Shown here: positions 51,883-59,383 of the stretch, one piece after another | Position numbering within the stretch: position 1 is the first letter of the stretch | Layout of the letters: each line of letters begins with the position of its first letter | Assembly (NCBI RefSeq): GCF_022024055.1 | Contig: NZ_CP091788.1 | Coordinates: forward strand, 2,914,001 to 2,978,000 | Source of the DNA: Prevotella sp. E2-28 | GTDB taxonomy: Bacteria; Bacteroidota; Bacteroidia; Bacteroidales; Bacteroidaceae | DNA length: 64,000 nucleotides | Reading direction: 5' to 3' | Notes under the pieces: model-generated | What the model was told of the DNA's origin: nothing | The model's input: the letters and a program-made list of their open reading frames with translations, nothing else | Databases searched by the model: none | Made by a program: the position numbers and the translations under genes

Positions 51883-54800
51883 ATGAAAAATTACATACTG
51901 ATACTGTTAGCTATGCTGCTGCCACTTACGGTGTGTGCTGACTACACACAAGGCAGCATCAACGTGACTGTAAACGGCAGTCTGCAAACCGCCGTCGCTC
52001 GAATCGACGGAACTAACCATAAAGTCGTGCTGGGCAATGGATACAACAGTTGTATTCCTTATTGGACAGAGGGGCAACTGACCATACCCGGATCGGTCAA
52101 TATTAGCGACACAGACTACCAGGTCGAAGTAGGACCGGTGGCCTTCCGCCTGTGCAACGGCCTGACAAAAATCACCATTGACGAGGGGGTGCAGACGATT
52201 GGTGACTACGCCTTTGTTGGCTGCTCCTCGGTCACAGAAGTCAACCTTCCTTCCACGCTGACATCCATAGAGCGTGGAGCCTTTGTCAACATGGCTTCGC
52301 TGAAGATCGTAACCAGCAAGGCAACAGCGGCTCCAGCATGGCATCTGAACGACGTGTTTAGTTCTACGGGAACAAAAGAGGGTATGGCCGAAATGGCAGC
52401 GTCGCGTATCTTATACGTGCCGGAAGGAAGTTGCGGCAGTTACCTCAGCACCAAGTACGACGGTTCGGCGCGCGGCTGGGAGACTGTGGGATGGCAGGAG
52501 GCTTTCACGCGTATCTACGAATTGAACGATAACCCGCAGGAGATTACTTCGCTGCAGGACTTGAAAGATTTCCGCGATGCCGTGAACGGTGGCAACCAGT
52601 ATAAAGGCAGCAACAACAAGATGGTGACACTGACCACAGACCTCGACCTGTCAAGCATTGATAACTGGACGCCTATCGGCACTTCGGTACATCCTTTCGA
52701 CGGCGTCTTCAATGGTGGTGGCCATGTCATCAAAAACTTAAATGTTAGTGGAAGCTCAAACTACAACGGTCTGTTCGGGTATGCCAACAAAGCCACCATC
52801 TATAACATGCATCTGCTGAATCCCACGGTGTCCGGTCCTGACTATGTTGGCACTGTGGTTGGGTATGTTGATGGAGATAGCCATATCACTGACATACTGG
52901 TCACCAGTAATTGCTCCGGTAACGATGGCTATACGGCCAAGGCAACGGATGGTAGTGTTGGCGGTATCGTAGGTCGTGCTAATAATGCCACCATTGAGCG
53001 CTGTCTGTTCGATGGATGGGTAAAGGGAACTGGTTGGACAGGCGGTATCATCGGTAATGTAAACACTAACGTGACCATCACCGACTGCTCAGCTTCCGAC
53101 TTTGTACAGAATACGAAAGATTTACTTGCTGAAAAGATACCTTTCACTGGCGGCATTGTTGGTGGTGCCGGTTATGTCACCATTGAGCGCTGTTTTGCGA
53201 GAAACATTCTTAGCCATACAGGAAGCCCATCAACATTTCCTGGCATCATCGTGGGAGGCACAAACAATGTGACGACAAGCACTATCAAGAACTGTGCATA
53301 TTTGGATATAGGAAGATTGTTGATAGGACAGCCTCAAACAGGTAGTAATAATACTTTAACTGATAACCAGGGTTATGAAAACCGATCAGACATGAACCAG
53401 GACAAGACCAAGAGTGTCTTGGGCGAGGACAACTGGTACTACTTCACTGGCAACTATATTGACTATCCTGTTCCTTCCACGCTGAAGGACATGTATCTTG
53501 CCAACTGTATAGACGAGGTGGACGGCGGTTTCACCTATCGTCCGGCAGGTGAAGGCGACGCGAGTTACGAGATTGTGAAATATACGGGCAGTGCCACGAG
53601 CCTCACCATCCCCGACACCTATAACGAAAAGCCCGTCACCGCCATCCTCGACGGAGTGTTCAAGGACAACCCGACGCTGGCGTCCGTCACCATTGGCCGT
53701 AACATTACGTCCATCGGTGCCAGTGCCTTTGAGAACTGCGACGCCTTGACAAGCGTTATCCTGCCTGATGCCGTGACCGACGTTGGCGAGGATGCTTTCG
53801 TAGGCTGTGACGAGCTCACCAGTTTTGCTATCGGTACAGGCTTCGCCAACCATAAGGGCAACTTCCTGGCCTACTGTCCTAAGCTGACCACAATTACCGT
53901 GGCAGACGGTAACACCAATAATTACAGCAGTGTAGATAACGTGCTGATACACAATACAGACTATGGCAGCTATGTCGTAGTCTGCGCTCCAGGCAAGACC
54001 GGCGACTATACGATACCTACAGGAAACCTCACAAACACATACGTATGGATAATGGGCAACTGCTTCGCATCTTGCAATGGACTGACCAGTATCACCTTCC
54101 CCTCAGGCAAGCAATACAAGCTGGACGGTGCAGTGTTCGACGAGGCATACAACCTTCGCTATGTTGATATGTCGAATGTTACTGGCTTCATTAATAATGA
54201 CAGGACTGCTACGACGGTGAACGTCAGCCGTAGCGACACCGACAATTCCTTCTATGGCATGAGCGAGTGTACCATCGTCTATCTGCCTGCTGGAAACAGC
54301 GCAGCTCAGGGCGAGGCGAATGTCGTTATTGGCGGCAATGCCAACAGCATAGAATTGATAGACGGTTGGGACTTCAATCCGCCAGTCACCATCACGACGA
54401 CGGGCGCGGTGTCGCTAAGACGTACGCTCAGAAGCAAGAGCGTTATCTATGCAACAACCGTCACCGACGAAAGCGGCAATCCCGTTTATCCCGATGATGA
54501 CGAAAAGATACCCTTGAAGGATAAAAACGGTAATCTGGTGTATGAAGAGGACGGGGTGACACCGAAGTATCTTCCCAAAATGACATCTGAGGAACGCTTT
54601 GAGGGGCGCGGCTACACGGTTTACCTGCCTTATGCGCTGACACTCACAGCAGAGAACGCCAAGGTCTATGCTCCTACAACGATAGCAACCGACACAGGGG
54701 TGACCACCGTCACCTTCAACGAGGTGCAAGATAAGGAAATGGCTGCCTACACACCATATTATATCGTTGTGGAGGGTAAAGATGCGGTAAAGCTATCCAC

Positions 54801-55206
54801 TACTGACGCCACCACCATAGCGACTCCGCCTACCGAAGAGCCAAGCCAACTGGACGGTTTCATGTTCAAGGGTACCACGGTTAAAATTCCAAACAGTGAT
54901 CTCTACGATGCCGAGAAGCCTACCTATCTGCTACAAAGCGACGACAAGTGGCACAAGGTGCCCTACAACCAGCCAAGGGCATATATCGGTCCTTTCCGTG
55001 CTTACTTCCAGGCTGTTGGCGCAAGTGGTACACGTATCCTTAACATGGCTTTCGGGCAAGATGAGACTACCGCCATCGCCCCCGTGGTCCGTACCATCGA
55101 TGCCGACGGCACAGAGCGCTACTACGACATGAACGGTTGTCAACTCAACGGCAAGCCCCGGAAGGGTATGTACATCCATAACGGTAAAAAACACATTAAC
55201 AAATAG
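51883..55206 (+). CDS. BspA-type leucine-rich repeat and GLUG-motif surface protein
   Basis: 1107 residues, signal peptide (1-19, LLPLTVCA). LRR_5 repeats (about 60-125: GDYAFVGCSSVTEVNLPSTL), a central region with GLUG-like motifs (about 285-430: YNGLFGYANKATIYN, GGIVGRANNATIERC, GGIIGNVNTNVTITDC), more LRR_5 (about 590-760), a beta-rich domain, and a YDMNGCQL..KGMYIHNG tail like that of the C10 peptidase at the window start, possibly a type IX sorting tail. It is probably a surface adhesin. It lies 24 bp after the second hydrolase, with an AGGAGG site. Confidence 0.88.
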   Translation: MKNYILILLAMLLPLTVCADYTQGSINVTVNGSLQTAVARIDGTNHKVVLGNGYNSCIPYWTEGQLTIPGSVNISDTDYQVEVGPVAFRLCNGLTKITIDEGVQTIGDYAFVGCSSVTEVNLPSTLTSIERGAFVNMASLKIVTSKATAAPAWHLNDVFSSTGTKEGMAEMAASRILYVPEGSCGSYLSTKYDGSARGWETVGWQEAFTRIYELNDNPQEITSLQDLKDFRDAVNGGNQYKGSNNKMVTLTTDLDLSSIDNWTPIGTSVHPFDGVFNGGGHVIKNLNVSGSSNYNGLFGYANKATIYNMHLLNPTVSGPDYVGTVVGYVDGDSHITDILVTSNCSGNDGYTAKATDGSVGGIVGRANNATIERCLFDGWVKGTGWTGGIIGNVNTNVTITDCSASDFVQNTKDLLAEKIPFTGGIVGGAGYVTIERCFARNILSHTGSPSTFPGIIVGGTNNVTTSTIKNCAYLDIGRLLIGQPQTGSNNTLTDNQGYENRSDMNQDKTKSVLGEDNWYYFTGNYIDYPVPSTLKDMYLANCIDEVDGGFTYRPAGEGDASYEIVKYTGSATSLTIPDTYNEKPVTAILDGVFKDNPTLASVTIGRNITSIGASAFENCDALTSVILPDAVTDVGEDAFVGCDELTSFAIGTGFANHKGNFLAYCPKLTTITVADGNTNNYSSVDNVLIHNTDYGSYVVVCAPGKTGDYTIPTGNLTNTYVWIMGNCFASCNGLTSITFPSGKQYKLDGAVFDEAYNLRYVDMSNVTGFINNDRTATTVNVSRSDTDNSFYGMSECTIVYLPAGNSAAQGEANVVIGGNANSIELIDGWDFNPPVTITTTGAVSLRRTLRSKSVIYATTVTDESGNPVYPDDDEKIPLKDKNGNLVYEEDGVTPKYLPKMTSEERFEGRGYTVYLPYALTLTAENAKVYAPTTIATDTGVTTVTFNEVQDKEMAAYTPYYIVVEGKDAVKLSTTDATTIATPPTEEPSQLDGFMFKGTTVKIPNSDLYDAEKPTYLLQSDDKWHKVPYNQPRAYIGPFRAYFQAVGASGTRILNMAFGQDETTAIAPVVRTIDADGTERYYDMNGCQLNGKPRKGMYIHNGKKHINK

Positions 55207-55210
55207 GAGG
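55205..55210 (+). promoter_or_regulatory. Shine-Dalgarno site AGGAGG
   Basis: Perfect AGGAGG overlapping the end of the upstream gene, 8 nt before the ATG at 55219; the same spacing as at 51869. Confidence 0.85.
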
Positions 55211-55218
55211 ACACTGCA

Positions 55219-55371
55219 ATGAAGAAATCATACGAAAAGCCCGCCATTTGCGTGGTACAAATACGTTATCAGAACCATTTGCTTGTTGACAGCCAGACTC
55301 AAAGAAAAAGAAAGTTTGTCGATGATGACGATTACGACGACGACGATTGGGATTTCGACGGTGGACAATAA
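55219..55371 (+). CDS. 50-residue peptide with a YxKP-type N-terminus and an acidic tail
   Basis: Too short for a standard gene call, but well supported: AGGAGG at ideal spacing, 12 bp after the BspA gene, and a strong terminator 55 bp on. The protein starts MKKSYEKPAICVVQIR, then NHLLVDSQTQRKRK and an Asp/Trp-rich tail (DDDDYDDDDWDF). Short proteins starting K-x-Y-x-K-P and followed by a hydrophobic segment to an xLL..S site are frequent in Bacteroidales; they look like leader-plus-tail peptides. No modifying enzyme is adjacent. Function unknown. Confidence 0.8.
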   Translation: MKKSYEKPAICVVQIRYQNHLLVDSQTQRKRKFVDDDDYDDDDWDFDGGQ

Positions 55372-55425
55372 TCAGGCAAGCCGCCTATGCTTGCATCAAG
55401 AAATTGTAACGGAGCATCCGTTGCA

Positions 55426-55469
55426 AAACTGCAAAAAGGGCGAATAACGCCCTTTTTGCAGTTTTTTTT
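55426..55469 (+). terminator. Strong terminator ending the hydrolase-BspA operon
   Basis: AAACTGCAAAAAGGGCG (55426-55442) and its perfect 17-nt complement (55448-55464) with a 5-nt loop and a T8 tract. Confidence 0.95.
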
Positions 55470-55494
55470 CAGTAATCTTCACTAACGATGTTAT

Positions 55495-55637
55495 GAAAAT
55501 CAAATGATTACAGCTGTGCCGCTGGTGGCAACCATCAGCATAGAGCCATTAGCACCAACAGTCTCGTAATCAATATCGATGCCCACGATGGCGTTGGCAC
55601 CCATAGCCTGGGCACGCTGCATCATCTCACGCATAGA
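55495..55637 (-). pseudogene. Truncated second copy of the murQ-ybjQ junction
   Basis: About 143 bp matching 47911-48053 with about eight differences. It contains the last ~45 codons of a YbjQ homologue ([20 protein letters not shown] to TAVII, then TGA), and on the other strand the final KIK-stop of a murQ-like frame. Nearly all substitutions are silent; only one residue change (Val to Ile) is seen. The homology stops abruptly at 55637, about 20 bp before the inverted repeat of the VapE element, and the rest of the gene is not found beyond that element. Confidence 0.9.
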
Positions 55638-55654
55638 TAAAAGAGATGTCAATT

Positions 55655-55778
55655 CTGAATAAGCCTCACACCCTCACATTTTTCCAGAAGCTCCAGTGTT
55701 TATCGGGGCTGAGGCGTGTGACCTTTTTTTGAGAAGGGTCACACAAAGGGTCACATCACCCCTCACACGCCGCCTCAA
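55655..55778. repeat. Left inverted repeat of the VapE element
   Basis: Matches the reverse complement of 57369-57476 at about 88% by hand, apart from one 12-nt indel (an extra GGGTCAC repeat here). It contains the hairpin GTGTGACC (55716-55723)/GGGTCACAC (55736-55744) and reaches into the vapE stop codon. Confidence 0.88.
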
Positions 55779-56989
55779 GCCGACTTCTTGGGAACGGCTT
55801 TGTAGAAGGCTACATGACTATGATCCACATATTCATAGCCCAACTCCTTCATTGTTCGTCCCAGATACATGCGGTTCTTCATGCTGACGTCCACAGAACT
55901 GAACTTCTCATGAATGATTTCCAGTATCTGAGCACAACTGATGGACTTCACCTGTTCGCCTTCTTTGGGTTTACGAAAGCATACTTCCACAATCTTTGCC
56001 AGATCTTTTTCGCCCATAAACTCCTGGTTGAGTTGCTGAATACGCGCCACCTCGTCATTGTTAAACCAATAAGGCGCTTTCTGCTCACGCAACTCATAGA
56101 CCACCTGTGCATAGAGCTGCTCATAGTCTATCTCGCCAGAGTTATCGATATACTGACCCTGTGGAATCTGCAGACAGATATAGCGGCGACTACCCGTGAC
56201 GTCCGACAGCGGATGGGGATTATTCGTCGTTGAGACGAACGAGGCAAAGCGGGCGCGGTCTTCCTGCGCGCAGCCATAGATGGGTCGTCCATTTACCTTA
56301 CTCTTAGAGAGTGTCTGCTTCAAGGATGCATGTTGACTGGGACGGATGGCCTCCAACTCATCCAAACATACCAGTAGGTTGTTCGTCAAGGCCATCTCCT
56401 TGTCGAACTTATTCGAGAGGTTCAGATGATCCAGAAAATACTGACGCAGGTGGGCAGGAAGCAGACGCTTGAAGAAGGTGGTCTTACCACATCCCTGAGC
56501 GCCGATAAGCGTAGGTACGACCTCATTTCCATGCAAGGTGTCCATCTGAAGCCAGTGGGCCACCGTAGAGCGGAGCCAGATAGAGAGAAACGCCAACTGC
56601 TCAGAACTGATGCCTGGCAGGCGTGAGAAGAGCTGAGCCACGTGGTTCTGTCCGTCCCACTGTGGCAGATGGTCCAGGTATTCGCGGATAGGGTTATACG
56701 CGCATACCTCTTCAGAATGAATATATTCCACGATGTCCGTCTTGGGATTACTGCCCTCGCAGATATCCTCGCGCTTGGCACGCAGGATGATGCTGTTCAG
56801 GGCCTCCTGAGTCAGCGGACGATAGTCGGATGCCTGACCATCAGCCGACTTCGTGGCGAACTCCACCTTTCCGTTCAGAAGATTACGACGGAAACAGTAG
56901 TTTTCGGTTAGAAACTGTTCTGCGGCAAGCGCAGATACGACAGGAGCATTAAGTGCCCCACCATTGATGAGTACTTCGTTTTTGTTCAT
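55775..56989 (-). CDS. VapE/VirE-family P-loop ATPase, solitary
   Basis: 404 residues. Virulence-associated E family, related to primase-helicase proteins of phages, satellites and mobile elements. Walker A in LIGAQGCGKTTFFKRLLP, Walker B in LLVCLDELEAI, a sensor/arginine region in SRRYICLQI, then a C-terminal domain (about 335-404) of DUF3874 type. The primase-like N-terminal partner found in many VirE proteins is missing. No integrase, capsid or replication gene is nearby. It lies between two long inverted repeats, and its stop codon falls in the left one. Confidence 0.87.
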   Translation of the reverse strand: MNKNEVLINGGALNAPVVSALAAEQFLTENYCFRRNLLNGKVEFATKSADGQASDYRPLTQEALNSIILRAKREDICEGSNPKTDIVEYIHSEEVCAYNPIREYLDHLPQWDGQNHVAQLFSRLPGISSEQLAFLSIWLRSTVAHWLQMDTLHGNEVVPTLIGAQGCGKTTFFKRLLPAHLRQYFLDHLNLSNKFDKEMALTNNLLVCLDELEAIRPSQHASLKQTLSKSKVNGRPIYGCAQEDRARFASFVSTTNNPHPLSDVTGSRRYICLQIPQGQYIDNSGEIDYEQLYAQVVYELREQKAPYWFNNDEVARIQQLNQEFMGEKDLAKIVEVCFRKPKEGEQVKSISCAQILEIIHEKFSSVDVSMKNRMYLGRTMKELGYEYVDHSHVAFYKAVPKKSA

Positions 56990-57368
56990 AAAAAGATTTT
57001 TAATTAGTGTTTTTAAATGGTTTTAAGGTTCCCCGTCTCAGGTTATCCTTTGCAGTTGCACTTGGGTCTCAAATGCAACTGCAAAGATACAAAAAAAATG
57101 GCCGTTTTGCAAGACTTTTCCTTAAAAAGTTGCGATTTCTTGCTGCATTTAACACTTTATTTTGCGAAATAAAAACAGGGATGTGTAAGATCTGAAACTG
57201 TACGCCGTTAGCGGACTCGCAGTCCGAAGCCGGCGGACTCAGAGTCCGCCCCCTACGGACGGGCATTCTGCTTGAATAGTCCTGTTGTGTATCTGTAATT
57301 ATCTTGTTCTTAAAGTACCTATTTTTATTTTAGGTTAACTCTCTTCCAACTTTATTTTAAAACAGGTT
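56990..57368. other. Region upstream of vapE inside the inverted repeats
   Basis: Contains a minus-strand -7 element TATCTTTG (57082-57089) with TTGC 19 nt upstream (57109-57112), and the GC-rich REP pair. No protein gene is supported. Confidence 0.55.
57211..57250. repeat. Pair of GC-rich REP palindromes
   Basis: CGGACTCGCAGTCCG (57212-57226) and GGCGGACTCAGAGTCCGCC (57232-57250), in an otherwise AT-rich stretch. The shared CGGACT core marks a REP-like family. Confidence 0.85.
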
Positions 57369-57476
57369 GAGACGCCGTGTGAGGGTTGATGTGACCCTTC
57401 TCAAAAAAGGGTCACACGCCTCAGCCCCATAAACACTAGGGCTTTCAGAGGAATGTGAGGGGGTGAGGTTTATTTA
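57369..57476. repeat. Right inverted repeat of the VapE element
   Basis: Reverse-complement partner of 55655-55778; keeps the GTGACCC/GGGTCAC hairpin and lacks the 12-nt extra repeat. No target-site duplication is evident outside the two arms. Confidence 0.88.
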
Positions 57477-57497
57477 CTCCTATGTTTTGTAACCGAA

Positions 57498-57555
57498 AAC
57501 TATTGAGTTGAGATGCATAACTCGCTGAGTTGTGACGCATAACTCATTGAGTTGT
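57498..57555. repeat. Second AACTC..GAGTT array (three units)
   Basis: Units at 57498, 57519 and 57541 (21 and 22 bp apart) of the same type as 14953-15102. The last unit supplies the C-terminal codons and TGA stop of the DUF4435 gene. Confidence 0.85.
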
Positions 57556-58548
57556 ATTAGGCTCCAGGAAATCCTCTATATCATTTTGTAATTGCAGGAA
57601 CAGGGGGCACTGCTGATAGCCGATGTTTTTCTTGAGCATAGACTTGACATCCTGCTGTGAGTTTTCGTAACAAGACATCTCGTTGCGCTTTTGTGTGCGA
57701 TGCGCCTGAGAATGGTATATCTCGTTCTGACGTTCCTGACGCAGCAGGTTGCACACCTTGGTCAGGATAGGAGCCACAACGGTATCGAAAAGATGATGCC
57801 CCTGCACATAGAGATAAGTGGTCTGTGGCGTAACACCTAAAGCCAAGATATCGTCCTTCACCCTCAGATAAGCCTCCTTATTATTAGGATACTGACGCTG
57901 CAACTCACGAATCTTGGTACCCACCTTGCGACGAATATTTGCGATAGAGGCTTCTGGATTCTGAACGGTAAAGCCACCTGGCTCTGTGACACGATTGAAA
58001 TCTGACAGAGAGAAGCGTCCGTGATGTCCTGTACGATAAGCCCATACAGACCATACGAAGAGTGGGAAACAAGCCTCACTAAACTGACGGAAATAGTCCG
58101 TGAAATCAAAGATGCGACGGTCGTTAAGGGTCACAGCCACACAGACATCGTGCAGCGAGGGAGCATAGCACTGGTAGTTCTCAATAGCATAGACATAAGT
58201 ATGGAATACGTAAGGGCTATTGATGACGCGGCGCGACTGCTCCGTAGCGCCCTGCATCAGGTAGTCGAAGTCGGCATCTACACAGGCTATCATATCAGGC
58301 CCCACATGCTCGCCAATAAAATTCATCAACACCGATTTCTTGCCTCGCGTCAGGTTTATTTTCGAAGGCAGCATCACCTCGAAATAGCGTTTCTCGTTCT
58401 CAAAACGATTAAGCACGGTACGCCAGAAATAGATATCATCGTAGCTCTCTACATAGGCCACGATTCTACGACGCGCCGTCTTACCCCTCAAGGCATTGGC
58501 AGCTTCGAAGTAACGGCTGTCTATATTATCAATCAGTCGGCTAGCCAT
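57544..58548 (-). CDS. DUF4435 (TOPRIM-like) protein, AriB-like
   Basis: 334 residues. TOPRIM-type signature in order: Glu34 in YVESYDDIYFW, Asp91/Asp93/Asp95 in CVDADFD, and YAIENYQCYAP. DUF4435 proteins paired with an ABC/AAA ATPase form the PARIS phage-defence system (AriB effector nuclease with AriA). The 8-bp overlap with the ATPase gene upstream fits such a two-gene module. Whether this pair acts in defence is inferred. The C-terminus and stop lie in an AACTC repeat. Confidence 0.85.
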   Translation of the reverse strand: MASRLIDNIDSRYFEAANALRGKTARRRIVAYVESYDDIYFWRTVLNRFENEKRYFEVMLPSKINLTRGKKSVLMNFIGEHVGPDMIACVDADFDYLMQGATEQSRRVINSPYVFHTYVYAIENYQCYAPSLHDVCVAVTLNDRRIFDFTDYFRQFSEACFPLFVWSVWAYRTGHHGRFSLSDFNRVTEPGGFTVQNPEASIANIRRKVGTKIRELQRQYPNNKEAYLRVKDDILALGVTPQTTYLYVQGHHLFDTVVAPILTKVCNLLRQERQNEIYHSQAHRTQKRNEMSCYENSQQDVKSMLKKNIGYQQCPLFLQLQNDIEDFLEPNTTQ

Positions 58549-59383
58549 TGACGGTAATCTCGCTCACTTCAGTCACACGGTCTGCCCAGCCATTCATCAC
58601 CACGGCTGGCGAGTGGGTGGTCATAATAATCTGGACGCTGGGATTCAGCTCCACCACCAAATCAATGAGTCGCTTCTGCCATTCCATGTGCAGACTCACT
58701 TCAGGCTCGTCCATAAAGAGCACGTATGGCTGATCGTCCTGCACTAGGGCCGTCAGCAGAATAGCCAGCATCTGCTTTTCTCCGCTGGACAACTGATAAG
58801 GCACCAACATTTCGCCTATCTGCGTGAATCGGATCTCGTTTTCTGTACGGACAATCCGCTTTCCCGTCTCAGCAAAGAGCTCGTCCACCATATCTTGGAA
58901 ACGCGTCTTTTTCTGTGACAATTGCTGGGCCGCATCAGCATGACCTTGCTGCAACTGTTCGATGATTCGATTGCCGATGTTCACCTGGTAATCCAGATAT
59001 TTTCGTTGCAGATTATACAACTGTATATCCAGTAAAGAGCCTCCTCCTACCCCAGCAAGTGCGGTAAGAGCTTGGCGTACGAAACCATCGCTCTCAGTAA
59101 AAGCCTGCGACAGGTTCGAATCGACAGAGCGAATCAAGTCATAGCGAATCCATTTGGCATCCTCTGGTACCACCTCCAGCCTCACACCTTTCAGCATGTG
59201 ACTGGGAAACTCGCCACCAGCAGCCAGTCCCTTTACTACCTTATTTAATATAGTGCTCTTACCCACGCCATTGATACCACTGAGGATATTCACCTGCGAA
59301 TCCAGTTCCCACACGATGTGCTTCTTACCACTCCACAGCGAATCAATCTCAATTTTTTTGATATAATCTGCGTACTTCTGCAT
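58541..59383 (-). CDS. AAA/ABC-type ATPase, AriA-like partner of DUF4435
   Basis: 280 residues. Walker A GINGVGKST (36-44), ABC signature LSSGEKQML, Walker B VLFMDEPEVSLH, His switch TTHSP. SMC/OLD-like AAA_15/AAA_21 family with a short helical insert between. It has no nuclease domain of its own. In PARIS the ATPase senses a phage protein and releases the DUF4435 effector; this protein is shorter than the typical AriA, so it may belong to a related chromosomal family. A weak -7 element TATATTTG lies at 59408-59415 (minus). Confidence 0.85.
   Translation of the reverse strand: MQKYADYIKKIEIDSLWSGKKHIVWELDSQVNILSGINGVGKSTILNKVVKGLAAGGEFPSHMLKGVRLEVVPEDAKWIRYDLIRSVDSNLSQAFTESDGFVRQALTALAGVGGGSLLDIQLYNLQRKYLDYQVNIGNRIIEQLQQGHADAAQQLSQKKTRFQDMVDELFAETGKRIVRTENEIRFTQIGEMLVPYQLSSGEKQMLAILLTALVQDDQPYVLFMDEPEVSLHMEWQKRLIDLVVELNPSVQIIMTTHSPAVVMNGWADRVTEVSEITVNG

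Follow-up and report, generated by a model that had tools for sequence, protein, structure and literature searches.

The satellite phage P4 is an 11-kb element with a primase, an integrase and late-gene control. Bacteroidales encode the BT4734/BF3469 family, whose members join a primase-like N-terminus (BT4734_N) to VapE and DUF3874 domains. In SaPIs, iterons lie directly downstream of rep, and the C-terminal domain of the protein is expected to read them, according to the available text of PMC7581432. The BT4734-like primase family is catalogued in PMC5862659, in whose available text 'inverted repeat' has zero occurrences, and PF08800 is named in one table line of the available part of PMC2880560. 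Literature searches, including those on Prevotella/Bacteroid, returned no description of a vapE unit bracketed by inverted arms, and nothing on DUF3874 or DUF6078.

The locus described here shares its domain family and nearest solved structure with SaPI Rep/PriRep1 (VapE) and, as far as the available SaPI text goes, an iteron array directly 3′ of the gene. It differs from a SaPI in having a second, inverted origin-like array upstream, the two arrays bounding the unit, and in lacking a primase domain, an integrase and other island genes. P4 alpha is accompanied by ori and crr, whereas the present unit has a single gene, its two sites forming a matched pair of inverted ends. With the BT4734/BF3469 family, the locus has in common the C-terminal two thirds of the protein and, in some cases, a neighbouring DUF6078 gene; however, the primase-like N-terminus is absent from its clade, and most sampled loci of that family are without an arm pair. 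Insertion sequences and MITEs are alike in their inverted ends and in one demonstrated case of insertion at a new site, but the unit has neither a transposase nor a target duplication, and its end sequence varies with the protein.

The window, meaning the whole 64,000-nucleotide stretch analysed, spans positions 2,914,001–2,978,000 of Prevotella sp. E2-28 contig NZ_CP091788.1. The unit and its surroundings comprise the following features, in window positions.

55494–55638, minus strand: 3′ remnant of a gene that we take to be of the ybjQ/DUF74 type; the unit cuts this gene, which is intact at the empty site in L153.
55658–55778, no strand: right arm, an origin-like iteron array downstream of vapE, delimited by inverted-repeat pairs, end-to-end alignment and the limit of homology.
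55775–56989, minus strand: vapE, 404 aa, an AAA+ helicase-type initiator by its domains (PF05272, PF19263, PF12990).
55778–55999, minus strand: C-terminal winged-helix domain (DUF3874), codons 331–404, the proposed iteron reader.
57048–57086, minus strand: leader hairpin with 17-nt arms, 94% complementary; the corresponding leaders of c299 and c167 are closely similar.
57082–57112, minus strand: promoter-like TTG-N20-TATCTTTG, of Bacteroidota type by its consensus; a near-identical string precedes c299 and c167.
57210–57249, no strand: REP-like palindrome pair, approximately 22 bp apart, from an inverted-repeat search.
57367–57474, no strand: left arm, upstream of vapE, an inverted copy of the right arm delimited on the same basis.

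The original prediction described two arms, at 55655–55778 and 57369–57476, as inverted copies separated by one 12-nt indel. Three inverted pairs were recovered, 55705–55755/57378–57428 (51 nt, 88%), 55658–55707/57425–57474 (50 nt, 80%) and 55746–55778/57367–57399 (33 nt, 91%), and the arms align end to end in inverted orientation with a single 12-nt gap. Their inverted Smith–Waterman score is 117, compared with 26 in direct orientation and 28 for the best of 25 mismatched partners. The arms are thus real, but their exact ends had been placed 2–3 bases away from those found here. As also predicted, the vapE stop codon (55775–55777) falls within an arm, at the inner edge of the right one. Only vapE, its leader and the palindrome pair lie between the arms, further open reading frames being shorter frames that overlap vapE or the leader. 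The ORF list and a domain search leave vapE as the sole gene, in agreement with the predicted lack of an integrase or transposase; a transposase gene, which is characteristic of insertion sequences, is therefore absent between the arms.

The window protein matches PF05272 over residues 106–325 (E 9.3e-35). Across 48 sequences, the Walker A residues G163, Q165, G166, C167, G168, K169 and T171 are invariant and T170 is nearly so. The nearest solved structure, both by sequence (6.8e-12) and by fold, is 7pds, the PriRep1 structure that includes dsDNA; for the window protein, confidence in the predicted structure is low across the AAA core (mean pLDDT 69). The protein also possesses the C-terminal DNA-binding domain by which VapE/PriRep-type helicases are recognised. 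These likenesses suggest that it is a VapE/PriRep-type helicase, for which origin self-loading and helicase activity are predicted. The right arm starts at the stop codon, so that a putative iteron origin lies beside the rep-like gene as in SaPIs and PICIs; of the other traits of such islands, no integrase was found in the unit or among 20 flanking genes of relatives, and no direct repeats at the ends. A comparison of three proteins with NCBIfam assigned none of them to a family. Directly upstream of the unit is a PARIS-like defence pair (57544–59383, minus strand), consisting of DUF4435 (AriB, 6e-68) and AAA_21 (AriA, 5e-54) proteins.

A protein search of the E2-28 genome found about nine vapE copies including that of the window, the others being 64–99% identical and two of them partial, together with six distant copies at 30–37% identity. 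On reading of the flanks, most of the E2-28 copies are each bracketed by a pair of inverted arms, the repeat words differing from copy to copy, and c197 has no clear pair. The window arm sequence has one other strong match in the genome, around a second vapE copy (G000, C1:166901–168405). Strong matches in this genome are thus confined to two places, both around vapE, and neither outcome named beforehand as refuting the prediction was seen: the arms are not unique to this site, nor do they occur at many sites as ordinary terminators unlinked to vapE. The second copy itself has an in-frame loss of residues 151–231, the Walker A region included.

The design extends well beyond the window, whose unit is one of a family of chromosomal units of approximately 1.8 kb each. 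For the relatives, a search of named genomes listed 350 loci, of which the best 80 were used; most are from Prevotella/Prevotellaceae assemblies and, by their titles, many from ruminants. Six with short flanks (L082, L087, L099, L101, L108 and L116) were dropped from the arm count, and the 74 loci with enough flank plus the nine own-genome copies gave 83 elements, in each of which 900 bp upstream was locally aligned with the reverse complement of approximately 700 bp downstream. The median score was 86 within an element, compared with 26 both for the direct orientation and for pairings of different elements, and 74 of the 83 elements scored at least 47. At L094, L121 and L127 the arms lie outside a DUF6078–vapE pair (scores 104–124), which brings the elements bracketed by arms to 77 of 83. 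Six elements are without two clear matching arms: c197, L077, whose arms are of two classes, L097, L106 and L132, with weak but recognisable arms, and L109, with a right arm only. Among 24 further loci of the genus with enough flank, which partly overlap the best-80 set, 22 score at least 46, with shuffled flanks at no more than 32; L055 and L061 fail.

The close family is present in 30 of 100 Prevotella genomes, its own included (E ≤ 1e-100), and in an order-level sample at E ≤ 1e-60 the E2-28 genome stands alone among 295. In the samples searched, the close family is bound to the genus. Of 7999 candidates in a broader protein search, 6767 scored as relatives at E ≤ 1e-10; the few that are labelled are named just VapE, DUF5906 or virulence-associated protein E.

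Each arm contains about five iterons, whose arrangement recurs from unit to unit (> or >>, core, <, >>>). From the outside inwards, the arms of most units start with one or two iterons, followed by a core of approximately 45 nt that is often near GAAACGCCTTTGTACAAAGGGGTTTGAGG, one inverted iteron and about three direct iterons, and in units of the AACAT class the iterons are all direct copies. Same-strand spacing is mostly 11–12 bp, about one helical turn, with 11 bp in 175 and 12 bp in 112 cases of consecutive iterons. In 67 of 74 elements, each of the two arms contains three or more copies of the element's best 8-letter word, compared with 1 of 74 for shuffled arms and 20 of 74 for mismatched arms, the latter figure arising because some units share words. 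The iteron word is the same in both arms of a unit and different between units, and units that co-reside in the E2-28 genome carry different arms. The window copy shows this pattern weakly, its best word having three and two copies, the rest being GGGTCACA-type variants as judged by eye.

An RNA element was considered and rejected, as eight unit loci gave no Rfam family at gathering score and window positions 54500–58800 gave only sub-threshold matches. Folding of the arms into hairpins was likewise set aside: against single-base shuffles, mean z was −2.9 for 58 left arms and −2.4 for 73 controls, and with arms folding just slightly better than flanks, we claim no special foldedness for them.

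Left-arm motif similarity was correlated with protein identity in 25-residue windows across 72 elements. Rho was 0.05–0.21 in every protein window ending at residue 370 or earlier, and rose to 0.29 for residues 361–385, 0.39 for 376–400 and 0.41 for the short last window, 391–404. With the AAA part controlled for, the C-terminal domain had a partial rank correlation of 0.26, a value matched in none of 200 permutations; for the reverse it was 0.09. The iteron word thus tracks the C-terminal winged-helix domain better than it tracks other parts of the protein, and the left arm, in which this was measured, is at the opposite end of the unit from the C-terminal codons. Linkage followed by arm-to-arm conversion could explain part of the coupling, since the C-terminal domain adjoins the right arm, and the pair L100/L107 runs contrary to it, with tails alike (0.91) and arm words unlike (0.33). 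The joint change of dispersed iterons within an arm while the core stays unchanged favours, in our reading, protein binding.

Individual pairs display the same coupling as replacements. The window unit and c299 share the leader (0.95), codons 1–105 (0.98) and codons 106–320 (0.94), whereas the last 74 codons (0.60; shuffled level 0.61), the right arm (0.57; 0.57) and the left arm (0.63; 0.52) are replaced. L063 and L064, from the sister genome, differ by a similar swap, and the two cases may represent one old event, as c299 and L064 have common flanking DNA. L077 resembles an intermediate in such a swap: the tail closest to its own is that of L084, whose iteron class is that of the L077 right arm, and its left arm belongs to another class. 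As a separate observation on the window unit, c299, L063 and L064, paralogues within a genome are about as similar over residues 1–330 as copies from different species, or more so (0.98 and 0.96, compared with 0.95 and 0.94), as if the helicase block had been converted between units.

When the window copy is compared with the second own copy and with L063, a copy from the sister species Prevotella communis E15-14, homology stops where the arms end on their outer side; the two comparison copies have a common right flank and occupy the same locus. At the locus of the window unit, E15-14 is without a unit and has an intact 105-aa ybjQ/DUF74-type gene, relative to which approximately 260 bp of target is missing in the window. 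The intact gene at the empty site and its remnant in the window indicate that the insertion is derived and was accompanied by a target deletion. Comparison of loci with and without the unit, as originally suggested, has thus yielded one clean gain with its empty site. Together with the homology limits and the arms in 77 of 83 elements, it upholds the prediction of a discrete moved cassette carrying a satellite-type replication gene. In some other pairs, homology extends past the arms, over upstream palindrome arrays or the downstream DUF6078 gene, so the moved block of some units may be larger than arm-to-arm.

The arms may also be equalised on movement. When units are compared in pairs, the two arms of one unit resemble each other more than either resembles its counterpart in the other unit in 4 of the 7 pairs whose left flanks are not homologous, compared with 1 of the 17 pairs whose left flanks are; L128/L129, L078/L079 and L071/L074 are the contrary cases among the seven. 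When the region is set by between-unit alignment, the counts become 3 of 7 and 0 of 17. These counts, from a small sample of dependent pairs, hint that one arm templates both on movement.

We propose that the unit is a minimal chromosomal replicon, a 'Rep-origin bracket', that over-replicates and is captured elsewhere, an explanation that we consider probable as a whole and very probable in its Rep-origin part. The unit would function in the manner of SaPI Rep or P4 alpha, except that its single helicase gene is flanked by two origin copies in inverted orientation. The VapE/PriRep-type helicase would bind the approximately five iterons of each arm through its C-terminal winged-helix domain; initiator hexamers would then load on both arms, unwind the DNA and over-replicate the bracketed segment, and host repair might capture the over-replicated copies at other chromosomal sites. 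Binding and replication by the unit's protein are suggested by analogy with the known initiators, and movement free of recombinase by the lack of any sign of one. Capture by host repair would need no recombinase and would leave no target duplication.

Alternatively, the unit could be a transposon passenger: a transposase or integrase from another locus would act on the arms as terminal inverted repeats, and vapE would be carried along as cargo. The inverted ends, the discreteness of the block, its insertion into a gene and the lack of a recombinase gene in the unit itself would all suit such a passenger. Yet target duplications were not detected in 72 elements, the mean longest direct match between 45-nt windows outside the ends (placed to a few bases) being 5.65 within and 5.65 between elements. 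Several helpers would presumably be needed, because co-resident units carry different arms. Against cargo, too, the arm motif follows the VapE tail. Moreover, no integrase or transposase occurred among 20 flanking genes of relatives, out of 71 listed, of which 14 matched Pfam families and six none. We therefore regard a passenger as unlikely. For the related reasons that the arms resemble sites of the unit's own protein and differ between co-resident units, we find the 'non-autonomous' of the original prediction, in the transposase-dependent, MITE sense, unsupported.

The unit could instead be an immobile replication module left by a phage satellite of the PICI/SaPI or P4 type, its copies spread by ordinary recombination. 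The PriRep1 helicase family, iterons beside the gene as in SaPIs, and the presence in the E2-28 genome of longer relatives whose N-terminal domain is of the BT4734 type agree with such a remnant, which we nevertheless judge improbable: the compact design recurs in 30 of 100 Prevotella genomes with differing host neighbours, none of 81 translated copies has an internal stop, and there are two arms rather than one. In addition, the phage, plasmid and IMG/VR collections contained no close relative; where there were matches at all, they were below 60% identity. Very unlikely, in our estimate, is a locus that serves the host, in which VapE and its arms form a regulatory or anti-phage device, for example through phage-triggered over-replication. 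The window unit does adjoin the PARIS-like pair, and a DUF6078 gene is often alongside the unit; however, the 20 flanking genes included no recurrent neighbour, and PADLOC matches for VapE are weak (E 0.019 and 0.035).

Returning to the Rep-origin bracket, it might, more tentatively, define a new class of mobile element, in which a lone AAA+ initiator helicase with neither nuclease nor recombinase moves by replicating the DNA between its own inverted origins, the ends being equalised on movement and read by an exchangeable C-terminal module. We hold this as a possibility rather than an expectation. An exchangeable specificity module would allow families with private end sequences to coexist in one genome. 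If the proposal is true, a mobile replicon can consist, in coding terms, of vapE alone, a gene that has thousands of relatives; the ends and their DNA-reading domains constitute a large natural set of matched initiator–origin pairs, in which the specificity code of VapE-type initiators could be tested directly; and the question is raised of how DNA spreads without a recombinase.

Arms are not a general trait of VapE loci, being absent from most sampled loci of the wider family and of phages and plasmids. Of 20 loci sampled across the wider family, four are bracketed by an arm pair (L252, L255, L265 and L266, L265 being from the same genus) and 16 have no matching pair, 18 of the 20 being from other genera; an arm pair is also present at L168, and 5 of 6 phage or plasmid VapE loci are without arms. 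By eye, several wider-family loci have short repeats downstream of the gene. Among the six distant E2-28 copies, a strong pair is found only at L023/L162, and L164 is weak. At L162, 94% matched 90-nt arms enclose DUF6078 and a 608-aa BT4734_N–VapE–DUF3874 protein. With arms around BT4734-type proteins at L162 and at wider-family loci, the window clade looks like a derived form in which the primase-like domain has been lost and a second arm has become the norm.

The DUF6078 gene lies directly beyond the right arm at L026, L027, L028, L032, L064 and others, and inside the arms at L094, L121, L127 and L134. It is downstream of the unit in at least 26 of 74 named loci and upstream in at least 4 of 74, some contigs ending early. 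It is not an obligate partner, as 17 of 20 DUF6078 loci from other genera have no VapE in the stretch.

The palindromes between the arms, predicted as a REP pair, are present, and their dispersal depends on the form. The exact GCGGACTCNGAGTCCG has copies in the 3.76-Mb genome at four vapE units only, whereas 14 sites in the genome match its sister palindrome when up to one mismatch is allowed, most of them outside vapE units. Arrays of short palindromes also adjoin the left arm on its outside in many units, often with a period of approximately 22 bp (AACTCnnnGAGTT, TTCCCAcgcTGGGAA and others); such arrays occur at 57504–57547 in the window and at L063, c167, c872, c922, L103, L120 and other units.
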